64,000 nt of DNA from Flavobacteriales bacterium (GTDB taxonomy: Bacteria; Bacteroidota; Bacteroidia; Flavobacteriales_F; PHOS-HE28), in assembly GCA_019912395.1 (NCBI GenBank), contig JAIOIH010000031.1, forward strand, positions 1 to 64,000, in the 5' to 3' direction. The position numbers were made by a program, and so were the translations under genes. Position 1 is the first letter of the stretch. Each line of letters begins with the position of its first letter. This document shows, in pieces, positions 33,919 through 50,043 of the stretch. A model generated the notes under the pieces. That model was given only the letters and a program-made list of their open reading frames with translations, made no database searches and had not been told where the DNA came from.

Positions 33919-35201
33919 AGATCCCCGCTTTCCTTTCCCGTTCCCGTACCACGTTCATCATTGTCCTCTCGCTCGTAGTTGGGCTGTTGCTCGGCCGGGC
34001 CTTCTTCGGCGGTGCCAGTACCGGGTCATCGATGGCGACCCATGAAGGGCATGGTGAAACGGGCCAGATATGGACCTGCTCCATGCATCCGCAGATCCGT
34101 ATGAACGAGCCCGGCTCCTGCCCCATCTGTGGCATGGACCTCATCCCCGCTGCATCCATGGAGGAGGATATGGACCCGATGTCCGTTCACATGACGGACA
34201 ATGCCATGAAGCTCGCGAGCGTGCAGACCATGGTGGTGGGCACGGGCGGAGGTGCGGGCAGCTTGCGACTGACCGGAAAGGTGGTGCCGGATGAGCGGCG
34301 CGTGTATGCGCAAGCCTCGCACGTGGCCGGGCGGGTGGAGGAATTGCTGGTGAACTTCACCGGCGAGTCCGTACAGAAAGGACAGACCCTTGCGCGCGTG
34401 TTCTCACCCGAGATGGTGACCGCGCAGGAGGAATTGCTGGAAGCCCACCGCGTGCGTGAAGCGCAGCCGAACCTCTACGCTGCGGCACGTGGAAAGCTGC
34501 GCAACTGGAAGCTGAGCGATGCACAGATAGATGCGATCATAGCCGCGGGAACAGCGAATGGCGTGATCGCGATCCTGGCGGATGTAAGCGGTGTGGTGGT
34601 GGAAAAGAAAACCGATCTCGGGGACTACCTGAAGCGCGGCGATGTGCTCTACGAAGTGGCTGACCTGAGCCAGCTATGGGTGCAGTTCGACCTGTACGAG
34701 AGCGACCTTGGCAGCACCCGGAAGGGCGACACGATCCAGTTCACTGTGCGCTCCCTGCCCGGCAAGACCTATAAAGGCCGCATCGCCTTCATCGACCCCA
34801 TGGTGGACCCAGCAACACGTGTGGCCCGCGCCCGGGTAGAGCTGAACGATCCGCAAGGCACATTGAAGCCGGGCATGTTCGCCATCGGGACCGTGCAGGC
34901 AAAGCACCGGCATGGAGATGCAGAAGCCTTGGTGGTCCCACGCACCGCCGTGCTCTGGACCGGCCCGCGCTCAGTCGTGTATGTCCGTGTGGGTGAAGGG
35001 CAGTTCCGCTTGCGCGAAGTGGTGCTGGGAGCCGCCATGGGCGCTGATGTGATGGTCGCCTCCGGCCTGGAAGCTGGTGAAGAGATCGTGGTCCATGGCA
35101 CCTTCACAGTGGATGCGGCGGCGCAATTGAGCGGCGCGCCCAGCATGATGTCTCCGCAAGGGGGTGCCATGCCGAAGGGGCATGATCATGGGAACATGTG
35201 A
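33915..35201 (+). CDS. cusB: CusB-type RND periplasmic adaptor with a metal-binding domain
   Basis: 428 residues. An N-terminal membrane anchor is followed by a Cys/His/Met domain (TCSMHPQI, CPICGMDL) like that in CopA, then the lipoyl and barrel domains of membrane-fusion proteins (GRVEELLVNFTGESVQKGQTL) and a Gly/Met/His-rich tail. It links CusA to the outer-membrane channel and loads metal. The pump genes are 11 kb upstream, so the set is split by the cassette. It overlaps copB by four bases. Confidence 0.92.
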   Translation: MKIPAFLSRSRTTFIIVLSLVVGLLLGRAFFGGASTGSSMATHEGHGETGQIWTCSMHPQIRMNEPGSCPICGMDLIPAASMEEDMDPMSVHMTDNAMKLASVQTMVVGTGGGAGSLRLTGKVVPDERRVYAQASHVAGRVEELLVNFTGESVQKGQTLARVFSPEMVTAQEELLEAHRVREAQPNLYAAARGKLRNWKLSDAQIDAIIAAGTANGVIAILADVSGVVVEKKTDLGDYLKRGDVLYEVADLSQLWVQFDLYESDLGSTRKGDTIQFTVRSLPGKTYKGRIAFIDPMVDPATRVARARVELNDPQGTLKPGMFAIGTVQAKHRHGDAEALVVPRTAVLWTGPRSVVYVRVGEGQFRLREVVLGAAMGADVMVASGLEAGEEIVVHGTFTVDAAAQLSGAPSMMSPQGGAMPKGHDHGNM

Positions 35202-35271
35202 AGGAAAACACCTAATACCCGATCACGAGATGCCATTTCTGACCAGCGCCTAATACGGACCGATCATTCTG

Positions 35272-35706
35272 ATGACCACCATTATCAACACGAACATGCC
35301 AACACGCTCCCGAATACAGCTCATGGCCCTGCGCATTGGCGGGCTTGTGCTCCTTGTACTCCTCACGGTCCTATTGATCCAACGATCCACCGCACGGTTG
35401 GATCAACGGCAGGTAGTAGGGACCTATCAAATGGAGCTTCCGCCCCTGTTTGACGAGGCCACTGCACCGGCCACGGTGGAACTGCACCCGGATGGCCGGA
35501 TACGCACAAGCGGACCCGGTGGAACCTTCAACTTCGAGGGGACCTGGACCTGGGACGATCCCGGAGGTTGGGTCCGCTCCGACGTGCCCGAGCTGGACCA
35601 TCGCATACGGGGATATCGCGGCTGGAGCGGCCCCAAGCTGTTCTGGAGGAACCAACCCGGAACCGATGATCTGGTGGAATTCACGCTACAAAACAGGAAC
35701 CCATGA
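35272..35706 (+). CDS. Hypothetical single-pass membrane protein
   Basis: 144 residues with one N-terminal transmembrane helix (about 20-40: ALRIGGLVLLVLLTVLLIQ) and an exported, beta-rich, Trp-rich domain (TFNFEGTWTWDD). Its last four bases overlap the next gene (ATGA), so the two are a unit. Not recognised. It starts with MTTIINTNMPTRS; the ATG at 35296 is an alternative start. Confidence 0.6.
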   Translation: MTTIINTNMPTRSRIQLMALRIGGLVLLVLLTVLLIQRSTARLDQRQVVGTYQMELPPLFDEATAPATVELHPDGRIRTSGPGGTFNFEGTWTWDDPGGWVRSDVPELDHRIRGYRGWSGPKLFWRNQPGTDDLVEFTLQNRNP

Positions 35707-37358
35707 AGCGATCCACACTTGAGCTGACCCGTGCAAGAAACTCCGGATGGGATCGGGAGTCCTTGATCTCCATTGTACTGGCCGTATTCCTGATCACACT
35801 GGCGTTCGCCAGCGGCTATCGCGCCACCAGCGACCTCACATGGGGTCCCTATGTGGACTTTGACCGGGATGCATCGTTCGCGCAAAGCATCTTGGATGGG
35901 CACTACGGAGAAGACCCCCTATATCGGGATGAGGTGATGTGGTTCACCCCGCTCCTATTCTCCATGCAGGCGTTCATCGTAAAGGCCACAGGCGTGTCGA
36001 TACAGGTATTCCAAGCACAGGCCGGGGCCTTCCTTAACCTGCTGGGGCCGATCGCCTTCTTCCTCATGGTCTGGCGGTTGTTCAACCCCTCGGTGGCGCT
36101 CGTGGCCTTGTGGGCGCAACTCTATCTACTACCCGGGCAGGAACCCGGCTGGGCGATCGCCACCTACTCCCCGTGGTTCCTGCCGATGATGTTCTCACAA
36201 GGCTTGTTCTACCTGATGGTGATCGCGCTGCATCGATCCTTCCGGTCCTCCAGTTGGCTTGTATGGCTGGGGGTCGGCACCGGTGCAGGTGTGCTGTTCC
36301 TGGCACATGCCGCACCTGCCATGATCCTGGTGGGCACGGTGGCGTTCCATCTGATCTACGCGATGGTCACAGCATGGCGTGCAGGGGATCGCCCCGCGGT
36401 GCTTGCCCATCTCAAGTGTTCGCTTGCTTCAGGTGCTGCCTTCATCATCATCACCTTACCGCTCACGTGGTATGTGGTAGGCCACTACGGATTGGACCAG
36501 GTGAACCGCATCCCAACGGCATTTACCTACACGCCGCTTTCCCTTCGCAATTGGAAGCTGTTCCTCTTCCACAATGCTTCGCTGTTCAATCTGATCGCGG
36601 TCATTGGGGTGGTAGGGCTATTCCGGGGCAAAGGGCAAGTTTCACGGGTATTAATGCGATCATGGATCCTACTGGCACTCTTCTTCGGCTTTTTCGGGTA
36701 CATGGCTGTAACATTGGGCGTACACTATGGCATTAAGCTGCCTACAGCAGTGCCCACCTTCCATTTCTATTTCTATCTGAAAGCAGCGCTTGCCATTGGC
36801 TTCGCTCATATCATGGTCCTTACCGTGGAACGTGGTTGGCGTTACCTCGGCGGTACCCACGATCTGCATAGGGTCACTACCAGGACCACCTTCACCCTCG
36901 GGGCCCTGATCCTTCTGCAAACAGCCATTGGGTATCCTGCCTACGCCAATAGGTCCGACCTGATACTCACCCGGCAGCAGTGCTTGGAACGGATGGCCGA
37001 CACTGGTGCAACGGACATGTGCTATTTCATGCGGGTCCAACTCCCTTGGGAAGCCGTGGTGCTCTGTGATGACGAACTTTCCATGTGGGTGCTCATGGCC
37101 TCCGCCCGCAAGACCGTGGCCACCAATGCATCGATGGCGAATCCGTACGTACTCCCTGCACCACGCGAGTTGGCCAGGGCAGGGATGCTCGCCGGCCTGA
37201 AGTCCCCTGCACCTGAAATGGACAGTTTGTTGCAAGCATACGATGTGTCCTACCTGCTCATCCGCACAAGTGAAGCGGAGCAGTTCCCCGAACGAGGGCG
37301 TTGGTTCCCCCACCTCGTCCACCGGAGCGAAGGGTACCTGCTCTATTCCAGGGAATGA
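35703..37358 (+). CDS. Multi-pass membrane protein, possible GT-C-like glycosyltransferase
   Basis: 551 residues with about 10 hydrophobic helices and a soluble C-terminal part (about 415-551). An acidic pair in the first exoplasmic loop (WGPYVDFDRDASFAQ) and the overall layout recall GT-C membrane glycosyltransferases, but there is no strong motif match. Coupled to the preceding small gene. The link to metal resistance is unclear. Confidence 0.5.
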   Translation: MKRSTLELTRARNSGWDRESLISIVLAVFLITLAFASGYRATSDLTWGPYVDFDRDASFAQSILDGHYGEDPLYRDEVMWFTPLLFSMQAFIVKATGVSIQVFQAQAGAFLNLLGPIAFFLMVWRLFNPSVALVALWAQLYLLPGQEPGWAIATYSPWFLPMMFSQGLFYLMVIALHRSFRSSSWLVWLGVGTGAGVLFLAHAAPAMILVGTVAFHLIYAMVTAWRAGDRPAVLAHLKCSLASGAAFIIITLPLTWYVVGHYGLDQVNRIPTAFTYTPLSLRNWKLFLFHNASLFNLIAVIGVVGLFRGKGQVSRVLMRSWILLALFFGFFGYMAVTLGVHYGIKLPTAVPTFHFYFYLKAALAIGFAHIMVLTVERGWRYLGGTHDLHRVTTRTTFTLGALILLQTAIGYPAYANRSDLILTRQQCLERMADTGATDMCYFMRVQLPWEAVVLCDDELSMWVLMASARKTVATNASMANPYVLPAPRELARAGMLAGLKSPAPEMDSLLQAYDVSYLLIRTSEAEQFPERGRWFPHLVHRSEGYLLYSRE

Positions 37359-37484
37359 GGGAACAGGTCCTTACCCGTACGAAGTGACCCCGACTCCATC
37401 GCGCTCGGCCATGCCAGTGGCCTTACCACCCCTTACTGATCTGATCTCAAATACTGCAAACCCGCGAGCGCGGATCTTGGCCCA

Positions 37485-37823
37485 TCAACTCATTACGCGC
37501 CAGACCAACCCGGAGAGGATCCCCGTGAGGATGAACCCGTAAATAAGCTTGTTGTACCGGGCCAGCCAAAGGGGCAGGTAGATGTCGAAATTGGGGAGTG
37601 GCGAGTCGGAATAGCGGCGTGCGACGATGGTGAGCGGACAGGCCATCCGAAAGAGCAACAGCACCGCACATTCCGCGCCGATGAGCGCCAGGCAGATCCA
37701 GGCCCACTTGTCCAGCCGGTCCACCAGCACCGCATAGAGCAGATAGAAGATCACCACCTTGAAAAAGACCCACACCGCCGTGTGGAGCAATTTGATGGTG
37801 ACAAGCTTGTTCCGCACTGTCAT
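37485..37823 (-). CDS. Small hydrophobic membrane protein
   Basis: 112 residues, about three hydrophobic helices with an N-terminal basic start (MTVRNKLVTIKLLH). The ATG at 37823 overlaps the TGA of the upstream membrane gene by the ATGA arrangement. Convergent to the 35703 gene. No family recognised. Confidence 0.55.
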   Translation of the reverse strand: MTVRNKLVTIKLLHTAVWVFFKVVIFYLLYAVLVDRLDKWAWICLALIGAECAVLLLFRMACPLTIVARRYSDSPLPNFDIYLPLWLARYNKLIYGFILTGILSGLVWRVMS

Positions 37824-38215
37824 GGCAACAAACCGCGCATGTTGGCCATCCACCATGGCGCGAGGAAGGTGATGATGGGCACGGCTACCCAAACACGTCC
37901 CTTCAACACATTGTAGTCCGCCAGCATCTCGGGCCAGGTATGGTGGCTGATGAAGTAACCAACGCCGAACTCGAAGGCCAGCGTGAGGAACAGCCAACAG
38001 GCCCCGGTGGCCCATGCCTGTTGCTGCGTGCCGGGGGCCACCCACGGCAATGCGTACCATGTGATGGACAGGATGATCACGCACAATAGCACCGTGCTGA
38101 TGATGTGCCCGATCGCTTCACCAGTGAACGGTACGATCACCTTCACGCGAAGCGTACCATTGGCGATGGCACCCACCATGAAGAACAACCAGATGAGAAA
38201 CGCTTTCCAGTACAT
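37820..38215 (-). CDS. Hypothetical multi-pass membrane protein
   Basis: 131 residues with four hydrophobic stretches (KAFLIWLFFMVG; GHIISTVLLCVIILS; GACWLFLTLAFEFG; VPIITFLAPWWM). ATG at 38215; a GTG at 38224 adds three residues. It overlaps the next small membrane gene and lies downstream of the mer operon in the same direction. Not recognised. Confidence 0.55.
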   Translation of the reverse strand: MYWKAFLIWLFFMVGAIANGTLRVKVIVPFTGEAIGHIISTVLLCVIILSITWYALPWVAPGTQQQAWATGACWLFLTLAFEFGVGYFISHHTWPEMLADYNVLKGRVWVAVPIITFLAPWWMANMRGLLP

Positions 38216-38511
38216 GGTGATCACGGTTCAGTGAAGTTGGAAAAATGGGATCGCCCGTACCATGATATCCGTCATGGGCGCACCTCCAAAGTTCCCTCCA
38301 CCCCACCTCACTCCGGAGCGGGACGTCCGCTCGTGCCCACATCCTGCATGGCCGTACCTTTCAATCCACCACAACTTGGTGCCGGGAGATGCCGCACGCC
38401 CGTTCCCTGCCGGGAGCTTTGTGGATGTCGCCTGCACACATGGTCATCGGGCTTGGCGTGTTGCTGGCTCCATGTTCCATGCATTACCCGATCCAACGAG
38501 CCTCACTCCGC

Positions 38512-40194
38512 TCAGCTGGCACAACAGCTCAGCTTGGAAACGTCCCTGGTGAAGCCGATTGCGGCCAACTTGATGCCCTCGGATAAGGTGAGATAGGGGT
38601 ACAGATCGTCCGCGAGTTCGGTGACCGTTACTTCATGTTTGATCGCCAAGCTCAGCATCTGCACCAATTCGCCCCCTTCCGGCGCTATGATGCGTGCACC
38701 GATCAGGCGGTCGTTCTTCGTATCGCGGACCAGCTTGATGAAGCCACGCATATCATTCGCGGCAATGCTTCGGGCGACGTGCTTGAGCTCGATCGTGGAA
38801 GTCCCGGCTTCGATGTCTGCGGCGGCGGCCTGCACTTCATCCATGCCCGCTCCGGCGATCTGCGGGTCGGTGAACATCACCCAGGGTAATGCGCTGTAGT
38901 CAACGCCACGGGGCGGCGCGCCGAACGCGGCCTGTACGGCGGTCTTGCCTTCATGGGCTGCGGTGTACACGAAAGCGGGCGTGTTTGCCACATCGCCAGC
39001 GGCGAAAATGTGCGGTACGTTGGTGGCCATCAGCTCGGTTACGGCGATGTGTCCGCTCTTGGTGAGCTCCACACCGGCCACATCAAGCCCCAAGCCGGTC
39101 GTGTTCGGGACGATGCCCGTGGCCACCAGCAGCACACCTCGCTCAACCAGCTCCGTATGGGAACCGTCGGCGCATTTGCAATGCAGAACGGTTCCCGCAC
39201 CGCGCTTTTCCACCTTGGTAATGCGCACGTTGGGCAGGATCTCAATGCCCTCGTTGCGCATGTGCTTCTCGATCTCCGCACTGATGTCCGGTGTCTGGGT
39301 GCGGATCACCCGGTCCGTGAATTCAAGGATGCGCACTTTCGAGCCTAGGCGGTTGTACGCCATGGCGATCTCCAAGCCGATGTATCCCGCACCCATGATC
39401 GTTATGCTGGCCGGCAGTTCTTCGCGGTCGAACAAGGTCTCGTTCGTCAAATAGCCGCTTTCGGCCAGCCCTTCGATATCCGGTATGCGCGTGGTGGCAC
39501 CAGTGGCGATCAGGAATTTCAACCCGGTGAAGGGGCCCTTGCCTTCCACCCGAACGGTCTTGGGATCGATGAAGGTGGCGCGACCTTCCAGCAGGGTTAC
39601 CCCTTGCAGGTCCTTCACCACATCCATATACTTCTGCTGCTGCAGATAGGCCACCAATGATCGCTTGTCGCGGATCACCTGGGCCATGTCGATGTCCACG
39701 CCACGCGGCTGGATACCGGTGAAGTTGGGATGCCGGGCGTGATGCGCGGCTTCGGCTGCGCGGATCAAGTTCTTCGACGGCACGCAACCCACGTTCACGC
39801 AGGTGCCGCCGAAGGGCAGACCGGAATTGATCATCAACGTCGATAGACCCATGCCATCGGCAGTGATCGCTGCGGAAAAGGCCGCTGAGCCACCACCGAT
39901 GATCACCAGGTCGTAGCGTCGGGCATCGCCACGGTTCCCGATCTCGCCGGGCAATTCACCACCGACCCGGTATTTCGGCGTGGCGTTGATGGTGGCGATG
40001 ATGGCTTCCTTGCTGGTCACTTCGGGGTCGAAGGTGCATGCGCACGTGGCTGCTGAATGGCTGGTCTTCGCGGACTCCACTCCGGGGATCTTTGACAACA
40101 GCTTGTCAATTCCCGTGGCGCAATCGTCACACGTCATGCCGGTTACTGAAAGGTTGAGCTGCTGGGCTTCGTTCGTTGTTGTTGGCTTGCTCAT
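38512..40194 (-). CDS. merA: Mercuric reductase with an N-terminal HMA domain
   Basis: 560 residues. FAD/NADPH enzyme that reduces Hg2+ to volatile Hg0 in the cytoplasm. N-terminal HMA domain with GMTCDDCATG (about 18-27), then an FAD fold (VIIGGGSAAFSAA), the redox pair GGTCVNVGCVPSKN (about 128-141) and the C-terminal Cys pair (SCCAS at the end) that hands Hg(II) to the active site. All expected residues are present. Its ATG overlaps the merT-merP TGA by four bases, third gene of the mer operon. Confidence 0.96.
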   Translation of the reverse strand: MSKPTTTNEAQQLNLSVTGMTCDDCATGIDKLLSKIPGVESAKTSHSAATCACTFDPEVTSKEAIIATINATPKYRVGGELPGEIGNRGDARRYDLVIIGGGSAAFSAAITADGMGLSTLMINSGLPFGGTCVNVGCVPSKNLIRAAEAAHHARHPNFTGIQPRGVDIDMAQVIRDKRSLVAYLQQQKYMDVVKDLQGVTLLEGRATFIDPKTVRVEGKGPFTGLKFLIATGATTRIPDIEGLAESGYLTNETLFDREELPASITIMGAGYIGLEIAMAYNRLGSKVRILEFTDRVIRTQTPDISAEIEKHMRNEGIEILPNVRITKVEKRGAGTVLHCKCADGSHTELVERGVLLVATGIVPNTTGLGLDVAGVELTKSGHIAVTELMATNVPHIFAAGDVANTPAFVYTAAHEGKTAVQAAFGAPPRGVDYSALPWVMFTDPQIAGAGMDEVQAAAADIEAGTSTIELKHVARSIAANDMRGFIKLVRDTKNDRLIGARIIAPEGGELVQMLSLAIKHEVTVTELADDLYPYLTLSEGIKLAAIGFTRDVSKLSCCAS

Positions 40195-40805
40195 GGAGTT
40201 TTAGTGTTTAGTCCGGTGGCCGTGTATCCGGTGGAATCAACGGCCGCGAAGAGTTGCTCGACGCTTACCCTGGCAGGGTCGTAGGTTACAACGGCAGTGC
40301 CTTCCTTGTACGAGGCTTCAGCATTCGCCACGCCCGGCACTTGTTGCAGGGCGCCGCCCACGTGGTTCTCGCAGCCCTCGCAGGTCATGCCCTTCACATT
40401 GATCACGATGCGCTGCACGGTGCCTCGGTCCACCTCCACAACGGCCGGTATGCTCCGATAGAACCATCCGGAATAGAGCGGGAACGCGCTGGTGACCACC
40501 GCGAAGACCGTAACGGCAACCAGGAATCCGGTGCGTTGGAACAGGCTCTTCTTCTCTGGGACCTCACAGGCACAATCATCCACGGGTGCAGGGCGTAGTT
40601 TCAGCCACCACGCGAAACCAAGGGCAAGCGCCGAAAGCCCGATCAGCCACGGTCGGGCAGGGCCCAGCCAATGGAAGGACCCAGCGAGTGAACCGACACC
40701 GGCCAAGGCAGCCAGCACAGGGGTGATGCAACAAAGGGAGGAGGCCACCGCCGCGACAATTGCCACCCAGATCGTACGGCCCTTGGAAATGTCCGAAGTG
40801 CTCAT
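40191..40805 (-). CDS. MerT-MerP fusion, mercury transporter
   Basis: 204 residues. The N-terminal half is a MerT-like membrane protein with the Hg-binding pair in the first helix (AAVASSLCCITPVLA) and CAC on a loop. The C-terminal half is a MerP/HMA domain with GMTCEGCENHV. So the periplasmic binding protein and the transporter are one polypeptide, which imports Hg2+ and passes it to MerA. The fusion (MerTP) is known in Bacteroidota. It overlaps the regulator by four bases. Confidence 0.9.
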   Translation of the reverse strand: MSTSDISKGRTIWVAIVAAVASSLCCITPVLAALAGVGSLAGSFHWLGPARPWLIGLSALALGFAWWLKLRPAPVDDCACEVPEKKSLFQRTGFLVAVTVFAVVTSAFPLYSGWFYRSIPAVVEVDRGTVQRIVINVKGMTCEGCENHVGGALQQVPGVANAEASYKEGTAVVTYDPARVSVEQLFAAVDSTGYTATGLNTKTP

Positions 40806-41179
40806 GATAGGATGTTCTCGTTCCGGATGTTCATGTCCATCTCTTCAGCCAGTGGACGACCGGCAGGGCTGAGCGCATAAAAGATCATCACGCCATCGCG
40901 TCGGCCCACTATCAGGTCGGCTTCGCGCATGCGCTTCAGATGCTGTGACACGGCGGGCACGCTCATGCCCAGGATATCGCTGATGTCGCAGGGACAGAGC
41001 TCCTTTTCCGCGTGCAGCAGGTAAAGGATGCTGGCCCGCACAGTGTTGCCAGCAGCGCTCCATCGCGCGGCTTGTGCCTCGAGCTCATCACTGAACTGCT
41101 TCAATGATCGGCGTTGCCGATCGATCATGTGGCCATCGGCTTCGGCGCGGATGCAGGCAGGTACTTTTCGAAGTTTCAT
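40802..41179 (-). CDS. ArsR/SmtB-family repressor of the mer operon
   Basis: 125 residues. Winged helix with the recognition helix MSVPAVSQHLKRMREAD and a metal-type pair CPCD near the start of the DNA-binding region. It takes the place of MerR, the usual mercury sensor: an ArsR repressor released by Hg(II). The initiator ATG is at 41179 and a TAACTTTG promoter element ends only five bases upstream, so the transcript probably begins at or near the start codon. The role as mer repressor is from context. Confidence 0.88.
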   Translation of the reverse strand: MKLRKVPACIRAEADGHMIDRQRRSLKQFSDELEAQAARWSAAGNTVRASILYLLHAEKELCPCDISDILGMSVPAVSQHLKRMREADLIVGRRDGVMIFYALSPAGRPLAEEMDMNIRNENILS

Positions 41180-41183
41180 GCCG

Positions 41184-41191
41184 CAAAGTTA
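41184..41191 (-). promoter_or_regulatory. -7 element of the mer promoter
   Basis: TAACTTTG on the minus strand matches the Bacteroidota -7 consensus TAnnTTTG. Transcription would start within a few bases of the regulator ATG (leaderless or nearly so). No clear -33 TTTG is seen at the usual spacing. Confidence 0.55.
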
Positions 41192-41203
41192 AGGACATGC
41201 TTA

Positions 41204-41221
41204 AATAAGGGATCACTTAAT
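41204..41221. promoter_or_regulatory. Possible ArsR-type operator of the mer operon
   Basis: Imperfect inverted repeat AATAAG-6 bases-CTTAAT (one mismatch) in AT-rich DNA just upstream of the -7 element, where repressor binding would block RNA polymerase. Confidence 0.4.
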
Positions 41222-41366
41222 AATGCACCTGGCTTGGGATCCCTTTATTAGCCCGCCCATCCGCTCCCGCAAGCGTACACCTCCCGGCCCGACCGGAAAG
41301 TGGGCTCAAGGCGAAAGAGGCAGGGGCGACTTGAGGGGTCCGCTGATGCGCGCCCGGGTCCCGGGC

Positions 41367-42410
41367 TCACCGCCGCACGGGATCGTCATTGCCCAGCAAC
41401 AGGTTGATGCCGCGCATGGACGGCAGCTCCGAACTGATGATCTTCAGGATCGCCACGAACGGCAGTAGCAGGATCATCCCTGATACGCCCCACAACAAGG
41501 CACCCGCCAGCACGATAACGATGGAGGCCAGCGTATTGAGATTGAGCTGCCCACCCACCACTTTCGGAAAGATCAGGTTCGCTTCAATGTACTGCACTAC
41601 ACCGTAGATCACCACCACACCCGCCGGGTACAGGATGTTCCCCGTGTCGATCCACACCACGGACATCGGAAGCAGGGAGCTGATGATGATCCCGACATAG
41701 GGGATGATCGTCATCAACGCGGAGAGCATGCCGAAGAAGATCGCATTGTCCACCCCCAGCAGCAGGAGGCCGATGCTGTTGAGCACCCCCACGATCAAAT
41801 AGACCTTCGCCGTCCCCAGGATGAACTTCGAGAAGCTCCGCACGCTGCGGTCAAGGACGGCGGGCAGTACCGAGCGCAATGCGGGGCTGGTGAATTCGGA
41901 CAGCGCCATCACATAGCGCCCACGGTGCTGCAGCAACAACGCCGCAATGATGGGGATGAAGAACAGGTTGAACACCATGCCGAACACCGCGTTCACTACC
42001 CGGACCAACGCCTCGCCGATCCCCGCCGGTAGCATGGTCAGGATCGAATCCCAGTGGTCCAGGTCCGTATCCGCCAGGTCCGTGAGGTAGCGGCGCACGA
42101 GGTCCATCGCCTGGGCAACGGCGCCGGAGGACCTGCCCCGCAATTCAGGCAGTTCCGCCATGAACGCGTTCAACTGCCACACCAGCAGGGCAACGATCGC
42201 CGAGAAGAGCAGCACCGCCACCAGCAGCCCCACGCTGATCGCGAGGGCGCGGGGGAGGCCGCGCCGCTCCATGCGCACCACCGCCGGGTACAGGACCAAG
42301 GCAAGCAGCAGGCTGTAGGCCAAGGGGATGAACAGGGCCTTGCCCACGTACAGCAGGGCGAGCACGGCCAAGCCGATCAGTAGCCGATCCCTGGTCCTGC
42401 TCTCGCTCAT
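41367..42410 (-). CDS. AI-2E family transporter (PerM/YdiK-like)
   Basis: 347 residues from the ATG at 42410 (MSESRTRDRLLIGL). The family has about eight helices and the long C-terminal hydrophobic part (IVIVLAGALLWGVSGMILLLPFVAIL). Members export autoinducer-2 or act as Na+/H+ antiporters; the substrate here is unknown. Frame extension to 42494 is not preferred. Lies between the mer operon and a restriction system without coupling to either. Confidence 0.88.
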   Translation of the reverse strand: MSESRTRDRLLIGLAVLALLYVGKALFIPLAYSLLLALVLYPAVVRMERRGLPRALAISVGLLVAVLLFSAIVALLVWQLNAFMAELPELRGRSSGAVAQAMDLVRRYLTDLADTDLDHWDSILTMLPAGIGEALVRVVNAVFGMVFNLFFIPIIAALLLQHRGRYVMALSEFTSPALRSVLPAVLDRSVRSFSKFILGTAKVYLIVGVLNSIGLLLLGVDNAIFFGMLSALMTIIPYVGIIISSLLPMSVVWIDTGNILYPAGVVVIYGVVQYIEANLIFPKVVGGQLNLNTLASIVIVLAGALLWGVSGMILLLPFVAILKIISSELPSMRGINLLLGNDDPVRR

Positions 42411-42568
42411 GCGATAAAGGTAGACCCGGCGGACCTTCAATTCACCGCCCTCCTTAGCTGGTGCGAATGGCCGTGCGTGTGACTTCTGGATCACTGCAAA
42501 CGCACGGCCTGAAATCCCGATCGGAGTTCGGGAGATCCCGATCGAAGTTCAGGCGATCGCCCCATTCC

Positions 42569-42593
42569 GGCGCTCGGATGTTCCCCGAGCGCC
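42569..42593. terminator. Strong hairpin between the AI-2E gene and the NotI-type nuclease gene
   Basis: Perfect 9-bp stem GGCGCTCGG / CCGAGCGCC with a 7-base loop. It lies downstream of the minus-strand nuclease operon (stop at 42786) but lacks a U-run, so its role as terminator is uncertain. A direct repeat CCCGATCG-(G/A)AGTTC sits just before it (42518-42550). The rest of 42411-42785 shows no gene. Confidence 0.4.
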
Positions 42594-42785
42594 AGATCAA
42601 CTTCGGCCTCCGGCCATCATCCACCTTCTTCGCAATCGGCTCTTGCTTGAAGTACTGGAAACCGCCGGAGTTGGACCGTGCTACCGGGCACAGGGCATAT
42701 CCACAGGAACCCCTGTTAAGCCGAGCACCGGGGTTTTGCACTCGAGCGCGGGGATGGGGCGCGGGGCAGGGTTAACCCGACAATA

Positions 42786-43889
42786 TTATACTGTTATCAC
42801 TCTGGTAGGCGTTCGTTTTGAAAGCAAGCGCATCAATTCTCTCAACGGCGGTTTTACAGGTGCCTTCACCATGTCTTGGAAGTATGGCTTCCTTGAACGT
42901 GTTGGCTGTGGACCAATATCACCGGCATAGAGGCTACCAGTGTCCAGCTCTATCAATCCTTTGGTCCGCTTGTACTCTTCTCCGTAGGACAAGCCAATAA
43001 TATTCACCTCACCAACGCTGTCTGATAGAAAGGCGTTTATGTCCAATGCGGTAGAACTTGAAATGTACTTGATCAGATTATCCTGAAGAACCCAGAATGT
43101 CAAACCGCCCCAGTTCAACCCGACTTCAGATTTCACGATTAGCTGGCTTACCATGCGCGCCCATACTTGGCGATAGTTGATTCCCGGTGCTGTATGCGGC
43201 AGGCCCTGTACTGCATTAATAAATGCCTTTGGGATCGTTGAATCCTTGCTCTTATTCCCACCTGAAGTGCTCGAGGTCATTATCTCGATAATTGTGGGAA
43301 GTCCACTTGGAAATCCTTCAATGAGATCCTCACTTTTCCCACGGATCACAGTATAACCTGCATGCTGCAGAACAGCACCGAGCTTTTCCCAACTGATGCC
43401 TGTACCCTCGGATGCCGCTTGCGTTGTAACACTGCCAACGGGCATCAGTACGTAATCGAACGTGTAGTCGAAACGCTTTCCGGGAACGCGCGGAGGGGAA
43501 TAGATCATCTTCAATTCCGACCAAACTCCAACCTTCGTCCCTTTGGGATAACCACATTTGGATAGCAGCAATTCCTCCGCGAAACCTTGACCAAACCGTT
43601 CGCCCGAATCCTTCCTGCCGAGGCAAAGAATCCTACGGGGACAAACGACCCAAGGGGCCTCATCCGCCTTTATCTGAATGGAACAAACACCCGATGGAAC
43701 ATGACGCTGACCGTTGAAGAATGCGGCCAACTCGTCATCGGATGTCAGATCAATATTGGATAAATGTCGATTACCGCCACCATCACATGGCGCATCCATG
43801 AACGGACAACGACATGCTTTGCGATTCTCGGTTGCCTCGATCGAGCTATCCGTCAATGGGTAACCAAAGACCTCGTAGATGCTTGGCAT
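42786..43889 (-). CDS. NotI-family type II restriction endonuclease
   Basis: 367 residues. Matches NotI over the N-terminal iron-binding region: CPF (C28), C35, GVCS (C69) and WVVCPRR (C83), the four-Cys pattern of the NotI iron site, after an EVFGYPL start. Catalytic region: RFDYTFDYVL (D145, aligning with the NotI FDW Asp) and PTIIEIMTSS (E202). The residue two after the Glu, Gln in NotI and Lys in most nucleases, is Met204 here. Its target is unknown, so do not assume GCGGCCGC. It overlaps the paired methyltransferase gene by 37 bases. Activity with Met at that site is doubtful. Confidence 0.75.
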   Translation of the reverse strand: MPSIYEVFGYPLTDSSIEATENRKACRCPFMDAPCDGGGNRHLSNIDLTSDDELAAFFNGQRHVPSGVCSIQIKADEAPWVVCPRRILCLGRKDSGERFGQGFAEELLLSKCGYPKGTKVGVWSELKMIYSPPRVPGKRFDYTFDYVLMPVGSVTTQAASEGTGISWEKLGAVLQHAGYTVIRGKSEDLIEGFPSGLPTIIEIMTSSTSGGNKSKDSTIPKAFINAVQGLPHTAPGINYRQVWARMVSQLIVKSEVGLNWGGLTFWVLQDNLIKYISSSTALDINAFLSDSVGEVNIIGLSYGEEYKRTKGLIELDTGSLYAGDIGPQPTRSRKPYFQDMVKAPVKPPLRELMRLLSKRTPTRVITV

Positions 43890-44995
43890 TGGAGAAAACG
43901 AGCTATTTCGCTGGCAATGGCCTTCGCCAGAGGTGGTGGAACGGAATTCGCAACTTGTCTGTGTTGATCCAGGTCAGTGACCCTTCCGCTCCTTGATCGA
44001 ACCGGGCCACTGAGTACATACTCATCCGGATAACCGTGGATCCGCATGTATTCCCTTGGCGTGAGATATCGGCTCTGGACCGGATGGAAGAATATCTCAC
44101 CGCAACGAAGCGTATTTGATGGGCGACTTCTTGATAATCTGAGATACTTGGTCGTATCCTTTTTACTGAGCTTTCCGACCTGTTCTTTCGGCAGGTGCAG
44201 TTGGGCAGCTAAATGCCCACCTTCGGGCACACCGCAGATCCGCTCCTTATCACGTGCCGGTGTTACGTCGATGTGACCTGGAAAACCAGGAGCCTCGTTC
44301 TTCCCGACAGGTTTGCCTATTCCTTTCAGCACCTCGCCCACACCAACGAATGGTTTTAGTTCGAACAAGTCCATTCCCTTCTTTTCCACATCCTGGTGCG
44401 TGGCGGCAGGAAAGTCAAACGTATTCTTGGCATCAGTGGCCACTATGAACACACGCTTGCGTTGCTGCGCCACTCCATATTCCGCGCTATTCAACAGTTT
44501 CCATTTGGGCGAGTATCCGATCTTCTGAAGATCCCTGAGAAGCATTTCCAAAACGCCTCCGGGCTTTCCATTATGATCACGAGCACTGATCAGCCCCTTG
44601 ACCTGCTCAATGAAGATGACCTTGGGCCTCAGCACCTCGGCGAACCGGACCATCTCGAAAAGAAGCAACCCTCGTTCATCCTCCAGTGCTGCTTGTTTCC
44701 CTATCTGCGAGAACGCTTGGCAGGGAGGGCCACCGAACAACAGGTCCAGTGGTTTTTTGTCGAGGCCTAGCATATCGCGCAAGACTTCCGGCTCAACATC
44801 GCGGATATCGCGTTCGATAACTACAGTTCCATGTTCTTGCCGCTTGATGTTCTCCCGCAATGTTTCGCAACAGTGCTTGTCCCGCTCGATGGATGCTAGC
44901 ACCTCGAACCCGGCATCACGGACCCCGATGTCCATACCGCCCGCCCCACTAAAGAGCGAAATGGCCGTGCGCATGTTTGACGTTTTTGTTGTCAT
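43853..44995 (-). CDS. DNA cytosine-5 methyltransferase, partner of the NotI-type nuclease
   Basis: 380 residues. Motif I SLFSGAGGMDIG, the catalytic motif IV GGPPCQAFS and late motifs (ITPREYMRIHGYP region, QVANSVPPPLA) are all seen. Motif VI reads EQV where ENV is typical. It protects the host DNA from the overlapping nuclease. ATG at 44995; 44974 is a possible internal start. Start and stop with the nuclease gene overlap, so expression is coupled. Confidence 0.95.
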   Translation of the reverse strand: MTTKTSNMRTAISLFSGAGGMDIGVRDAGFEVLASIERDKHCCETLRENIKRQEHGTVVIERDIRDVEPEVLRDMLGLDKKPLDLLFGGPPCQAFSQIGKQAALEDERGLLLFEMVRFAEVLRPKVIFIEQVKGLISARDHNGKPGGVLEMLLRDLQKIGYSPKWKLLNSAEYGVAQQRKRVFIVATDAKNTFDFPAATHQDVEKKGMDLFELKPFVGVGEVLKGIGKPVGKNEAPGFPGHIDVTPARDKERICGVPEGGHLAAQLHLPKEQVGKLSKKDTTKYLRLSRSRPSNTLRCGEIFFHPVQSRYLTPREYMRIHGYPDEYVLSGPVRSRSGRVTDLDQHRQVANSVPPPLAKAIASEIARFLQCQASTRSLVTH

Positions 44996-45089
44996 GTTCA
45001 CAGGCCCAATGTACAGCCGATCGTTATAGGATCGTGCCTCGGTGTATGCCCGTTACGCACATGCCAATGGTATGCAGTCGCGTTCGTAG

Positions 45090-45205
45090 GCCATCGGCCG
45101 TTCGGCGGCTTCAGGCCTCTTCGCTTCTCGGCTCATCGGTTGATCGGAATTCGGCGTATTCCGGCTCCGGCGGTTTCCGGCCTCTTGGTTTTTCAGGATG
45201 ATCAG
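45090..45205. repeat. TTCAGGC-family interspersed repeat, copy 4
   Basis: GGCTTCAGGCCTCTTCGC, GGCGTATTCCGGCTCCGGCG and GGTTTCCGGCCTCTTGG repeat the motif order of the copies at 3596-4890, 40 kb away. It fills much of the gap 44996-45347, where no gene is supported. Confidence 0.6.
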
Positions 45206-45347
45206 CTGATCAGCTCGCAAGGCACTCGGGAAACACGCGAGCGCAGGGATGGGTTGTGCCACTTTCGCTACGGCCTCGGCTGGTTGTTCCAATAGGTTCT
45301 TATCCAAAGTGAACTTCACGGCCTTAAAGGTGCCCGTGGGCCAACAA

Positions 45348-46166
45348 CTAACGACTTCCTATAACGAGCTTCCCTGATGTTCTCAAATTGTCCACAACAA
45401 GGATGCATTGGTACACCCCACCTGCCAATCCTTTTACTGAGAACGTAAATGCAGACTTGCCATTAAGCATGTACTGCCTGACTACTTTCCCATCAGAACT
45501 CATTAGCAACAGCGTTGCATCTTTCTGCGCGAAGCGCCCGGGAACTTGCACCGTTACCTCGTTGGCCGTAGGATTTGGAAAAATCGTTAGGCCACCAGAT
45601 GCATCATCCCCGTTCATAACAACCATCCCAGCAGGTGTTCCATGGCAATCAATGCAGGGCAGGTGCCCTGGAAGCTGGTAGACTTTGTAAGGCCCGTCCA
45701 CTTGGGATTCGTACAGTAACATATACGCTACCCCGTTATTTTCGTACACACCCCCGTCGCCAAACATTCCCAGGCCGGGAGTTTGATTGAAGATTTCTGT
45801 TCCATCCTCTCGAAATACTCTTACACCAACGCTGGGATCTGAGACCGACCCAATGGCGAACTCGATTGTTGATGGATCTGTATCGAAAAGCTCCTCCGTT
45901 ATGTTGGACATCCTAACCTCCGCACCGAAAGGGTTCGGCAATGGAGGAAAGTTCAATACGCGATGGACAGAGAAATCGGGATTGTAGATGGTTCTGGTTC
46001 CGGAGAGTGAATTCCATGCACTGATGAACTTATGACCGCTACTCAAAGTCGACAACCTACTTACCGGTTCCGGCGATGTTGCTACCACAGGGAATTGAGC
46101 CTGTATTTTCGGCGAAGCTGTGATGCAGCATAGCAGCAGTACGGATTGGAAAAGTACAGACTTCAT
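45348..46166 (-). CDS. Secreted protein with a type IX sorting domain
   Basis: 272 residues. A signal peptide (SVLFQSVLLLCCITA) and, from about 190, a T9SS type A sorting domain (LTIFPNPTANEVTVQVPG) mean it is exported across the outer membrane and anchored or released. The mature part has a CIDCHG near residue 171, a heme-like C-x-x-C-H, but only one; heme attachment is uncertain. The middle looks beta-rich. Function unknown. Confidence 0.8.
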   Translation of the reverse strand: MKSVLFQSVLLLCCITASPKIQAQFPVVATSPEPVSRLSTLSSGHKFISAWNSLSGTRTIYNPDFSVHRVLNFPPLPNPFGAEVRMSNITEELFDTDPSTIEFAIGSVSDPSVGVRVFREDGTEIFNQTPGLGMFGDGGVYENNGVAYMLLYESQVDGPYKVYQLPGHLPCIDCHGTPAGMVVMNGDDASGGLTIFPNPTANEVTVQVPGRFAQKDATLLLMSSDGKVVRQYMLNGKSAFTFSVKGLAGGVYQCILVVDNLRTSGKLVIGSR

Positions 46167-46591
46167 TGCCTGATTGCATTTGTTGTTTGAGGCAATGATA
46201 AAGGAAAGTTGCCAATCCTACGATGAGGATAGCAACCTAATGCCGGGTCTAAATTGGGTCACCGCTACGAGAGATTTATTCAGCCAAATCCCATTTACAC
46301 CCCCCACATCTCACAACCCTCCGGATCATCCAGTGAGCAAGCGATCTGCGATGCGGCCTCGCTGCTCATGGTAACCGAAACGCCTTGCGCGGCGGCCACG
46401 GATTCGGCGGTGGTCACCGATCAGCCCACCTTCACTGCTGCCTCGGCAGGTTGTTCCAGCCCGACGCTCCCGCAAGCGTTCACGTCCCGGCCCCACATAA
46501 GTTTGCGCTCTTGAACGAATAGGCCGGGGCCGCAATCTGGCCTGCGCTCGCCTGGCCGCCGAACGCGCCGATTTGCATCCCGTTCCACTCC
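46167..46591. other. Gap with short repeat remnants
   Basis: No gene is supported. At 46465-46492, CGCTCCCGCAAGCG-TTCACGTCCCGGCC matches 41262-41290 with two differences, and CCTCGGCAGGTTGTTCC at 46441 resembles CCTCGGCTGGTTGTTCC near 45272, so parts of this gap are dispersed repeats. Confidence 0.5.
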
Positions 46592-46607
46592 ATCGTAATA
46601 TTGCGAT
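46592..46607. promoter_or_regulatory. Operator-like palindrome of the ars genes
   Basis: ATCGTAATATTGCGAT is a near-perfect palindrome around AATATT, 16 bases before the arsR ATG. It has the form of an ArsR-family operator and could overlap the promoter. Confidence 0.65.
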
Positions 46608-46623
46608 CTAATAGGCCGAACCG

Positions 46624-46989
46624 ATGGGACTTGCCAAGCTCGATGAATTCACCCTGCGGGACAACCGCGTGGCGCGCTATGCGAAGGCCCTGGCACACCC
46701 GGCGCGCGTGGCGATACTGCGGCTGCTCGCGAAGAAGAAGAGCTGCGTTTGCGGCGACATCGTGGACGAGCTGCCCCTCTCGCAGAGCACGGTGAGCCAG
46801 CATTTGAAGGAGCTGAAGGCCTCCGGACTGGTGCAGGGCGACGTGGAGGGTGCCCGTGTGTGCTACTGCATCGATCCGAAGGAATGGGCCTTGGCGCAGC
46901 GCACCCTCACCGGCCTGCTGGAGAGCTTCCGCGAGGCGGACCCGGACTGCTGCGCCCCGGTGGGCAAGAACAACGTAAGATCACGATAA
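46624..46989 (+). CDS. arsR: ArsR-family arsenic-responsive repressor
   Basis: 121 residues. The winged helix has [18 protein letters not shown] as recognition helix and the As/Sb-binding type cysteines SCVCGDIV ahead of it, with a second cluster near the C-terminus (DPDCCAPV). Repressor that leaves its operator when arsenite binds. Eleven bases separate it from arsM, so the two form one operon. The operator palindrome is at 46592-46607. Confidence 0.9.
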
Positions 46990-47000
46990 CACCGAACACC

Positions 47001-47846
47001 ATGAAAACCGCTGAGGAACTGAAGGAGAACGTACGCAAGACCTATGCGCAAGTGGCAAGGCAAAGCAAGGAGACCAACGCCTCCTCCTGTTGCGGCGCCG
47101 GCGAATGCAGCACGGAGGTGTACAACATCATGAGCGACGACTACGCCGGGCTGAAGGGGTACGCGGCCGATGCGGACCTCGGCCTGGGCTGCGGGCTGCC
47201 CACCGAAACGGCGGGCATCAAGCCGGGCGACACCGTGCTGGACCTCGGCAGCGGCGCGGGCAACGATGCCTTCGTGGCCAGAGCGGAGACCGGCCCTGAC
47301 GGCCGCGTGATCGGCGTGGACTTCACCCCGGAGATGATCGCCAAGGCGAAGGAGAACGCAACCAAGCTCGGATACGCCAATGTGGAATTCCGCCATGGTG
47401 ACATCGAGGACCTTCCGCTCTCCAGCAACATGGTGGATGTGGTGGTGAGCAACTGCGTGCTGAACCTGGTGCCGGACAAGCGCAAGGCATTCGCGGAGAT
47501 GCACCGCGTGCTGCGCGTGGGCGGCCACTTCAGCGTATCGGACATCGTGCTGACGCGCGAACTGCCGGACGAACTGCGCCAGGCGGCGGAGCTGTACGCG
47601 GGCTGCGTCACGGGCGCATCGCAGGTGGAGGACTACCTCGGCATCATCGCGGAGACCGGCTTCACCAACGTGCAAGTGCTCAAGCGCAAGCCCATCACGA
47701 TCCCGGATGATATCCTCGCTCGCTACCTCTCCGCTGCGGAAGTGGAAAAAGTGAAGGCCGAAGGGCTGGGCGTGGAGAGCATTACCGTCCGGGCCGAGAA
47801 GACCGAGCAAGGCGCGTGCTGCGGACCGGGCAGCTCCTGCTGCTGA
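47001..47846 (+). CDS. arsM: Arsenite methyltransferase
   Basis: 281 residues. Class I SAM methyltransferase: motif I VLDLGSGAGNDAF, preceded by a Cys-rich start (SSCCGAGEC) and the As-binding region (GCGLPTETAG), with a C-terminal Cys cluster (GACCGPGSSCC). Methylates arsenite to volatile or less bound methylarsenicals. The frame is open upstream but the ATG at 47001 (MKTAEELKENV) is the family start. No arsenite pump or reductase is next to it. Confidence 0.93.
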   Translation: MKTAEELKENVRKTYAQVARQSKETNASSCCGAGECSTEVYNIMSDDYAGLKGYAADADLGLGCGLPTETAGIKPGDTVLDLGSGAGNDAFVARAETGPDGRVIGVDFTPEMIAKAKENATKLGYANVEFRHGDIEDLPLSSNMVDVVVSNCVLNLVPDKRKAFAEMHRVLRVGGHFSVSDIVLTRELPDELRQAAELYAGCVTGASQVEDYLGIIAETGFTNVQVLKRKPITIPDDILARYLSAAEVEKVKAEGLGVESITVRAEKTEQGACCGPGSSCC

Positions 47847-47987: not shown

Positions 47988-49973
47988 TTAAAGGCTCACC
48001 ACACGCTCCACGAAACTGCGCTCGGCCGTACGGATCACCACGATGTAGGTGCCTTTGCCCGGTAAGCGCGTGGTCCAACGGCCATTGCCATCAGACTTGC
48101 GCTGGGCCACCCTGCGACCGCCGGCATCATACACGTCGATACTGGTTATGCGCCCATCGATGCCCGTGATGTTCAGCAGCCCGTCCCGGACGGGGTTGGG
48201 GAACACGTGTACCCCCAGCTCGCGCAGGTCGTCGATGCCCACCGTCATGTCCGTGTGCGTGCTGGAGCGCACCGCTACCGGCGCCTTGTCCGCAGCTTGG
48301 AACATGCCCTTGAAGAGGTCGATCTCCGGGCTGGAATGCAGGAACATCTCCTGCATGAAACGCGGCGGGGCGGATTGGTACCACACTTGCGCAGTGATGT
48401 GGATCAGGCCGATGTGGCCGCCCATGGGCACATGGTAGTGGACCACGTCGGTGCCGCTTCCCTCAACGCCGTCCTCATGGTTGAAGTCCGGATCGGTGAG
48501 GGCGCCGCCCGCGATCAGGGTAGTGTCGTAGGTGCTGTGGTTCACGCTGAAGCCGGCGGGGGCCAGGCGGTTGTCCTTCAAGGGTTCCTTGGCCCGCTCC
48601 AGAACAGTGGTCAGGTCGCCGTTCACATCGCCCATCACCATTTCGTAGATCTGTACCTGGTCGGCCGATGTGATGGTGTTATAGTGAGGCTCCCATAGGG
48701 GGTCGTGGCCCGCGATATCGCCGTCCGGGGTGGGTGCCCCGTTGTTGTACAGGGTATCGCCCACGGCATCGGTCACCACCAACTGGAGCCATGCGCGGCG
48801 CGAGGGGTAGCCGCTGGGGAACTTGTGGCCGGCGAGGTTGGTGAGCTTCACATCGATGAAGGCGGTATCGGCATCGCGCCAGGGCACGCTGGTCTCCACC
48901 ATTAGTGTATGCTGCTGGAGCATGCGTTCGGTGCGGGCGATGGAGGAATCGAACTGGGCCGGCGATGCGGTCACCCTCAGGGTGTCCCCGTTGTCCCGCA
49001 GCATTTCGAGCATGAAGGTGTTGGCCCCGGCGAAGTGGTGCTCGCCGAAGGGTGACTTGGGCTGCAGGAAGACGTAGTTCGCGGAGATCACCACGCCGAA
49101 CGTGTCGTTGAGCAGGGGCACATGGCAGCCTTGGCAGGTGATCCCGGTCGCCGGGTGCTCCTCATCGTTGAATTCCGAGTTGAGCCATTCGTGGTAGGTG
49201 GCCTGTTCCACGAACTCGTCGCCCGTGAGGTTCCCATCGATATCGGCGGTCTCGGTGAGGAGGGTATGGCAGCCCGCACAGAGCCCGGCGTCCATGATCT
49301 GGGGGCCGTACTTCGGGTCATAGCCCACGAAGATCTGCATCGGGTCGGGAAAAATATCGTCATCGGCATAGGGCCCGTAGATGGGCCTTCCCGCCGTGTC
49401 CAGTTGGAGGTTCCCGGAGAAGAAGTCGCCGATGCCTTCCTCCTTCTGCATGTGGCAGGGCACGCAGCTCACCCCGTCCAGCGCAATGTCGTCCTGTTCC
49501 AGGTAGGCAATGGAGTAGGGACCCTGGCCGGTGAAGTGGTGCTCGAAGTTGCCCATGGGGGCATGGCAGGTGGTACACTTGTTCTCCAACTCCACTTGGT
49601 GGGCGGGGTTCACCAGCACCTCATGGCTCACCTTGGCCCGCCAGAAGGGATCGCGGGCGGAATTGGCCATCATGCTGCTCCGCCACATGTCCACCACGTT
49701 CACGTCGCGCCCATCGGCGGTCACCATGGATTGGCCGGAGGGGTCGTGGCCATGGCAGCCATTGCAGTAGCCGCTACCCACGAAATGGGTGTTCGCGTTG
49801 GAGTCCAGCGGCAGGGTGCCCGCATCGCGGAAGCTGGCCAGCTCACTGCTGCTGTGGAACGAGGCATGCGCCTCGGGCACATGGCCATTGGACCAGGCCA
49901 CGGACAGGGCGACCGCGCCAGCCAAGGCAGCCAGCACCACGGACTTGCCGATCAGGGAGTAGCTTTTCTTCAT
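47988..49973 (-). CDS. Multiheme cytochrome with a type IX sorting domain
   Basis: 661 residues. Signal peptide, then five heme motifs (CNGCH, CTTCH, CVPCH, CAGCH, CQGCH) within the first half, a beta-rich middle, and a T9SS sorting domain at the end (HVFPNPVRDGLLNITG). So it is a c-type multiheme protein delivered to the cell surface. It may pass electrons across or outside the outer membrane; the substrate is unknown. ATG at 49973 chosen over an open frame to 50018. Confidence 0.88.
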   Translation of the reverse strand: MKKSYSLIGKSVVLAALAGAVALSVAWSNGHVPEAHASFHSSSELASFRDAGTLPLDSNANTHFVGSGYCNGCHGHDPSGQSMVTADGRDVNVVDMWRSSMMANSARDPFWRAKVSHEVLVNPAHQVELENKCTTCHAPMGNFEHHFTGQGPYSIAYLEQDDIALDGVSCVPCHMQKEEGIGDFFSGNLQLDTAGRPIYGPYADDDIFPDPMQIFVGYDPKYGPQIMDAGLCAGCHTLLTETADIDGNLTGDEFVEQATYHEWLNSEFNDEEHPATGITCQGCHVPLLNDTFGVVISANYVFLQPKSPFGEHHFAGANTFMLEMLRDNGDTLRVTASPAQFDSSIARTERMLQQHTLMVETSVPWRDADTAFIDVKLTNLAGHKFPSGYPSRRAWLQLVVTDAVGDTLYNNGAPTPDGDIAGHDPLWEPHYNTITSADQVQIYEMVMGDVNGDLTTVLERAKEPLKDNRLAPAGFSVNHSTYDTTLIAGGALTDPDFNHEDGVEGSGTDVVHYHVPMGGHIGLIHITAQVWYQSAPPRFMQEMFLHSSPEIDLFKGMFQAADKAPVAVRSSTHTDMTVGIDDLRELGVHVFPNPVRDGLLNITGIDGRITSIDVYDAGGRRVAQRKSDGNGRWTTRLPGKGTYIVVIRTAERSFVERVVSL

Positions 49974-50043
49974 GGGGATGCACTTGCGAATGTTCCGCAA
50001 TGTATGGCTCTCCCCCAAGAAAAATCAAAGCGGAAAGCCCAGC

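Follow-up and report, generated by a model that had tools for sequence, protein, structure and literature searches.

Two overlapping genes on the reverse strand of the window (the whole 64,000-nucleotide stretch of Flavobacteriales contig JAIOIH010000031.1 that was analysed) encode a C5-cytosine DNA methyltransferase and a putative restriction endonuclease. These genes and the features within them are given below in window coordinates.

43853..45001, reverse strand: C5-cytosine DNA methyltransferase, 382 aa (PF00145, E 1e-61), catalytic motifs invariant
43853..43889, reverse strand: 37 nt shared by the 3' end of the methyltransferase gene and the 5' end of the endonuclease gene, from the ORF coordinates
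42786..43889, reverse strand: putative restriction endonuclease of NotI fold, 367 aa, ORF intact (AlphaFold2 model; VIA-align to NotI 3c25)
43641..43808, reverse strand: Cys4 metal-site segment, its four Cys aligning with NotI-family proteins and NotI 3bvq
43806-43808, 43785-43787, 43683-43685 and 43641-43643, reverse strand: Cys28, Cys35, Cys69 and Cys83, respectively
43509..43517, reverse strand: Glu125-x-Lys127 in the first core strand, Glu125 at the place of NotI Glu145, Lys127 family-specific
43455..43457, reverse strand: Asp145, aligning with NotI Asp160
43296..43454, reverse strand: residues 146-198, the segment modelled alone, containing the winged-helix-like insert (residues about 149-192)
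43278..43286, reverse strand: Glu202-Ile203-Met204, Met204 at the place of NotI Gln184
43112..43178, reverse strand: helix NYRQVWARMVSQLIVKSEVGLN, residues 238-259, holding Arg240, Arg245, Gln249 and Lys253

The endonuclease gene began with an ATG and had 0 internal stops, and direct reading of the sequence placed the codon of residue 204 at 43278-43280 (CAT on the forward strand, ATG on the reverse strand). Searches with the endonuclease sequence found nothing in Pfam, NCBIfam or the PDB, and PADLOC gave a match at chance level only. A GajA match at E 0.05 was taken as chance.

The G+C content was 0.50-0.54 at about 42.5 to 46.5 kb against 0.57-0.65 in the surrounding sequence, and this dip around the restriction pair fits a horizontal arrival of the region. 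One flank of the pair carried a mercury group (MerT-like, mercuric-reductase-like and an ArsR-type regulator), while the other carried an ArsR-type regulator and a methyltransferase resembling ArsM, as we presume from its sequence. The pair was enclosed in a metal-resistance stretch (33915-47846) that also included a CusB-like efflux protein, and the MerT-like and mercuric-reductase-like proteins had heavy-metal domains. Flanking this island were two genes (45348-46166 and 47988-50018) whose products had Por secretion tails, the second being also cytochrome c-like.

An AlphaFold2 model of the endonuclease built with 46 relatives had a pLDDT of 91.2 and a pTM of 0.90. Plain Foldseek of this model against the PDB returned no match at E <= 0.001, and the match to the NotI fold comes only from VIA-align realignment of the Foldseek candidates. 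The top entry was NotI with DNA (3c25; Z 19.4, rmsd 3.0, 247 aligned residues, 19% identity), in which model residues 1-341 were paired with chain residues 12-334. Apo NotI (3bvq) scored Z 18.6, with 246-247 residues aligned across both NotI entries. The next fold was XisH (2inb, 2okf) at Z 7.3 over about 120 residues, which differed in that only the core was aligned (model range 81-322) with no Cys4 segment, a match level that is common according to the tool. The structural alignment called for by an earlier sequence-only reading of this locus thus recovered the NotI fold.

Homology to NotI was detected between profiles. An hhalign comparison of the 46 relatives with 12 PF12183/NotI-family proteins gave a probability of 96.1 and an E of 2.9e-9, and a joint profile of 14 hand-chosen rows, seven per family, found NotI 3bvq at E 1.5e-7 with the catalytic stretch aligned. 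The PF12183 members were taken from actinobacterial genomes, and the plasmid genes were those annotated in RefSeq as 'NotI family restriction endonuclease'. The 46-row profile of the window family alone reached 3bvq only at E 0.56, and NotI was not found in the PDB with the window sequence alone, with single PF12183 members or with their 12-row profile. PF12183 matched neither the window protein nor any of the 46 members at E <= 1, and a PF12183 search of the window's own genome gave nothing at E <= 10. The protein was filed outside PF12183 because it lacks both a match to that model and the Gln. The earlier assignment to the NotI family held for the overall layout and was not supported as strict PF12183 membership, and the best reading is that the nuclease belongs to a NotI-fold sister family of PF12183 that is unrecognised by Pfam, NCBIfam and PADLOC.

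In the 14 rows of window-family and RefSeq-annotated NotI-family enzymes, the four Cys, Glu125, Asp145 and Glu202 were invariant, and the iron-site cysteines and D145/E202 pair that had been proposed from the sequence are present at those positions in a NotI layout. The joint profile aligned NotI E182-I-Q184-T-M-D-F-H-G190 with E202-I-M204-T-S-S-T-S-G210 of the nuclease free of gaps, the NotI numbering being obtained by counting back from the last aligned residue, 194. This placed Met204 opposite Gln184, as had been claimed, and the one-residue shift feared at the time was not seen. The same alignment paired Glu125 and Asp145 of the nuclease with NotI Glu145 and Asp160, which with Glu182 we take to be the catalytic residues of NotI, an enzyme that cleaves at GCGGCCGC. 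Arg245 and Gln249 likewise showed no variation, and Arg240 and Lys253 hardly any; all four are in a helix spanning residues 239-259 of the AlphaFold2 model. Arg245, Gln249 and Lys253 were common to the NotI-family rows as well and are therefore not special to the Met-bearing family.

Relatives were collected in one scan of 84,980 species genomes, using a seed alignment built with two relatives from genomes of the window's phylum. The scan reported 82 loci, of which 80 were kept and 45 entered the family alignment. By record title they came from more than 15 bacterial phyla and two archaeal groups, although many are metagenome bins, so that individual hosts may be wrong. Searches of IMG/VR and plasmid collections for relatives gave none. 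Five Gordonia phage records at E 0.3 were taken as chance. Met204 and Glu202 were each found in 80/80 relatives, Asp145 in 78/78 and Glu125 in 77/77 readable ones, counts that omit loci gapped at the respective place. One of the two search peptide patterns contained Met204, a possible seed bias; Met204 was present in 42/42 loci matching only the seed FDYTFDY, a pattern far from it. Some loci were broken (e.g. L062, L074, L075, L078, L081 and L084).

Searches with the joint profile gave matches in 13 of 398 genomes of the Thiothrix phylum and 43 of 395 genomes of the window's phylum, and the best 30 loci from each search were added. In none of the rows aligned was the third catalytic residue K; only Q, H and M were seen there. 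A tree of 72 rows, including 13 further Met rows picked by hand and omitting rows below 200 aa and duplicates or broken loci (L104, L115, L116, L117, L141), placed 21 Met rows on one side of a branch with a support of 100/100, while the other 51 rows had Gln (40) or His (11). The tree program gave a long-branch warning among the Gln rows, and the tree was midpoint-rooted for drawing only, so that the order of Met and the other residues is not given by it. Judged from these sequences, Met204 is a trait of the family rather than a result of decay. No description of the family was found in the literature within reach of the search, outside which lay most subscription papers and REBASE.

A methyltransferase gene was located directly upstream on the same strand, mostly overlapping the nuclease gene, in 74/80 loci, and overlaps of 1 to about 40 nt were usual among the relatives. 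No methyltransferase match was obtained at L030, L076, L077 and L078, each having less than 400 bases upstream, or at L021 and L080, which had enough upstream sequence. A nuclease gene with an adjoining methyltransferase gene is the arrangement by which a Type II restriction-modification system is recognised. Pro-Cys-Gln, the motif VI Glu and QxRxR were kept in 64/64 aligned methyltransferases including that of the window, which agrees with the earlier description of the partner as intact. Motif VI read E-Q-V in 58/64 where the usual form is E-N-V, and the last motif was mostly A-N-S and not G-N-S (43853-45001 and 63 relatives). The region before the last motifs was strongly conserved, which suggests that one target is shared across the whole family. 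Pairwise distances of nuclease and methyltransferase were correlated in 64 pairs (the window and 63 loci with a methyltransferase match <1e-110 and a nuclease of at least 340 aa) with r 0.93, a value reached by 0 of 2000 permutations. Simple co-inheritance of the two genes would produce such a correlation as well. Ten close nuclease pairs had dN/dS values of 0.077-0.218. The suspicion that the enzyme may be inactive was thus not supported, given the constant Met204, the paired methyltransferase and the low dN/dS, and decay of the nuclease is unlikely.

The spacing between the Asp145 and Glu202 strands was 55-57 residues in 76/79 rows, including the window, against 15-19 residues between the Asp and Glu strands in NotI-family rows. 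The exceptions were two rows with 64 and 72 residues and L029 with 18. The insert modelled alone (residues 146-198, 46 rows) had an AlphaFold2 pLDDT of 84.5 and the order strand, helix, helix, strand, strand. Foldseek of the insert alone found nothing in the PDB at E <= 0.001 (E-values >0.3), while VIA-align returned winged-helix domains at Z 4.5-6.0 (rmsd mostly 1.2 to 3), among them those of MarR and ArsR regulators and also of proteasome and COP9 subunits. The modelled shape is likely a winged helix. The 320-aa protein of L029 (L029:5001-5957) was without the insert and kept E125, D145, E202 and M204 together with an intact upstream methyltransferase. It fell within the Met branch of the tree beside L022, which points to a loss of the insert in this protein.

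Lys127 is located two residues beyond Glu125 (i+2) on strand 119-130 of the AlphaFold2 model. Of the 77 relatives readable at this position, 73 had K; the four others were L014 and L042 (both R), L006 (T) and L030 (Q). At the same place NotI has Ser, and the NotI-family rows had G, P, R, H and others with few K. Lys127 is the first candidate and might stand in for the Gln. Since L006 has Thr at 127 together with a nuclease and a methyltransferase of full length, Lys127 may be dispensable.

We read the two genes as a working restriction-modification system of Type II, in which the nuclease has a NotI fold, carries Met204 and is predicted to be active, and we give this reading a probability of about 0.7. 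The analysis showed the fold and the homology of the nuclease, the identity and invariance of its residues, its pairing and coevolution with the methyltransferase, and purifying selection; cleavage, metal binding, a role for Lys127 and DNA binding by the insert are inferred, as follows. The upstream C5 methyltransferase would methylate a cytosine in a shared target, which the downstream nuclease would cut when unmethylated. The nuclease would combine an N-terminal Cys4 metal site with a PD-(D/E)xK core in a NotI fold, where Glu125, Asp145, Glu202 and the Ile203 main chain may hold the divalent metal that activates water. A Met side chain does not donate hydrogen bonds, so help for the transition state would be needed from elsewhere. 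Lys127, on the neighbouring core strand, would be the first candidate for this; alternatively the metal site and the conserved helix residues Arg245, Gln249 and Lys253 may suffice. The winged-helix-like insert probably contributes DNA contacts. That this is a widespread active sister family of NotI with an obligatory Met, with either Glu125-x-Lys127 or no polar third residue, and with a winged-helix module gained, is held with somewhat less assurance, as the better side of an uneven balance.

Other explanations bear on the alignment and on activity. A shifted alignment, in which a Lys or Gln such as Lys213 occupies the place of NotI Gln184, might be entertained given that hhalign handled the insert region badly and opened a gap after residue 204. 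It is nonetheless highly improbable, as both hhalign and the joint alignment kept Ser209-Gly210 back to Glu202 in register with E-x-Q, the spacing from E182 to G190 in NotI is the same as that from E202 to G210, and Lys213 was paired with NotI Lys193 in the same alignment. The nuclease may otherwise be a dead relative of NotI, kept for site binding or for regulation of the methyltransferase, since the third residue is a Met unable to donate a hydrogen bond, where NotI has Gln and the other rows have Gln or His. Were catalysis gone, one would expect some of the metal ligands to be lost too, whereas E125, D145 and E202 were kept in every readable relative, and the pairing in 74/80 loci together with dN/dS of 0.08-0.22 fits a working pair, although selection alone cannot separate cutting from binding. 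We regard a dead enzyme as unlikely.

A stronger competitor, tentatively held and still judged the less probable account, is that Met204 works directly and no polar third residue is needed, the enzyme being slower, a nickase or dependent on a metal other than Mg2+. Met is invariant in 80/80 relatives against only 73/77 for Lys127, which would favour a direct role. The available part of PMC4081073 notes Gln, Glu and Asn at the third motif place in other restriction enzymes and Gln in NotI where Lys is usual, and Lys is hence dispensable there. BglII, BamHI and MspI resemble the window family in that Lys is not obligatory at this place (PMC4081073, available part), and differ from it in having a polar residue there (Gln, Glu or Asn) and in not being close in sequence. 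Every known replacement named in that part of the source is polar, and the literature within reach of the search gave no example of Met at the third place, both of which weigh against Met204 acting directly.

Taking the predicted active restriction system as the preferred reading, its closest known counterpart is NotI (3BVQ, 3C25), with which it shares the fold over nuclease residues 1-341, the four Cys and the places of E145, D160 and E182. It differs in carrying Met204 where NotI has Gln184 and in being longer at two places, with about 38 residues inserted between the Asp and Glu strands and about 30 more from the second Cys to the third. The PF12183/RefSeq NotI-family proteins (L086, L091-L096, L098-L101) have the same Cys4, E-D-E and R..Q..K helix and the same S-G after the motif, and also an adjoining DNA methyltransferase in 4/4 plasmid examples. 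They differ from the window family in an E-x-Q, the lack of an insert and a partner that may be an adenine methyltransferase.

A long-standing question is whether the third residue of PD-(D/E)xK enzymes serves as general base, stabilises the transition state or can be dispensed with, and both views of its role are stated in the available part of PMC4081073. A large family with Met at this place throughout and all else retained offers a test of how such enzymes cut, for which the Gln-bearing sister family and the small branch with His are natural comparisons. The restriction system is unannotated, and methylomes of hosts held in culture collections, by record title Allochromatium warmingii DSM 173 and Thiothrix eikelboomii ATCC 49788, could reveal its target.

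A separate observation concerned PF12183 proteins (E 1e-54 to 1e-59) encoded as convergent pairs between housekeeping genes in genomes of one family of the phylum Bacteroidota, as listed below.

L146:5562-6896, forward strand, and L146:7529-8635, reverse strand: convergent PF12183 pair
L147:5736-7052, forward strand, and L147:7645-8769, reverse strand: convergent PF12183 pair
L148:5948-7420, forward strand, and L148:7934-9220, reverse strand: convergent PF12183 pair

No methyltransferase ORF was seen near these pairs. Their rows mostly had E-x-H at the third residue and Ser at the place of Arg245. For one genome with such a pair (G284), the same contig was also present in a Chlorobiaceae bin. 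From their sequences these proteins seem to be NotI relatives that were domesticated and extended at the N-terminus, the extra part being DUF2383-like at a level below the cut-off.
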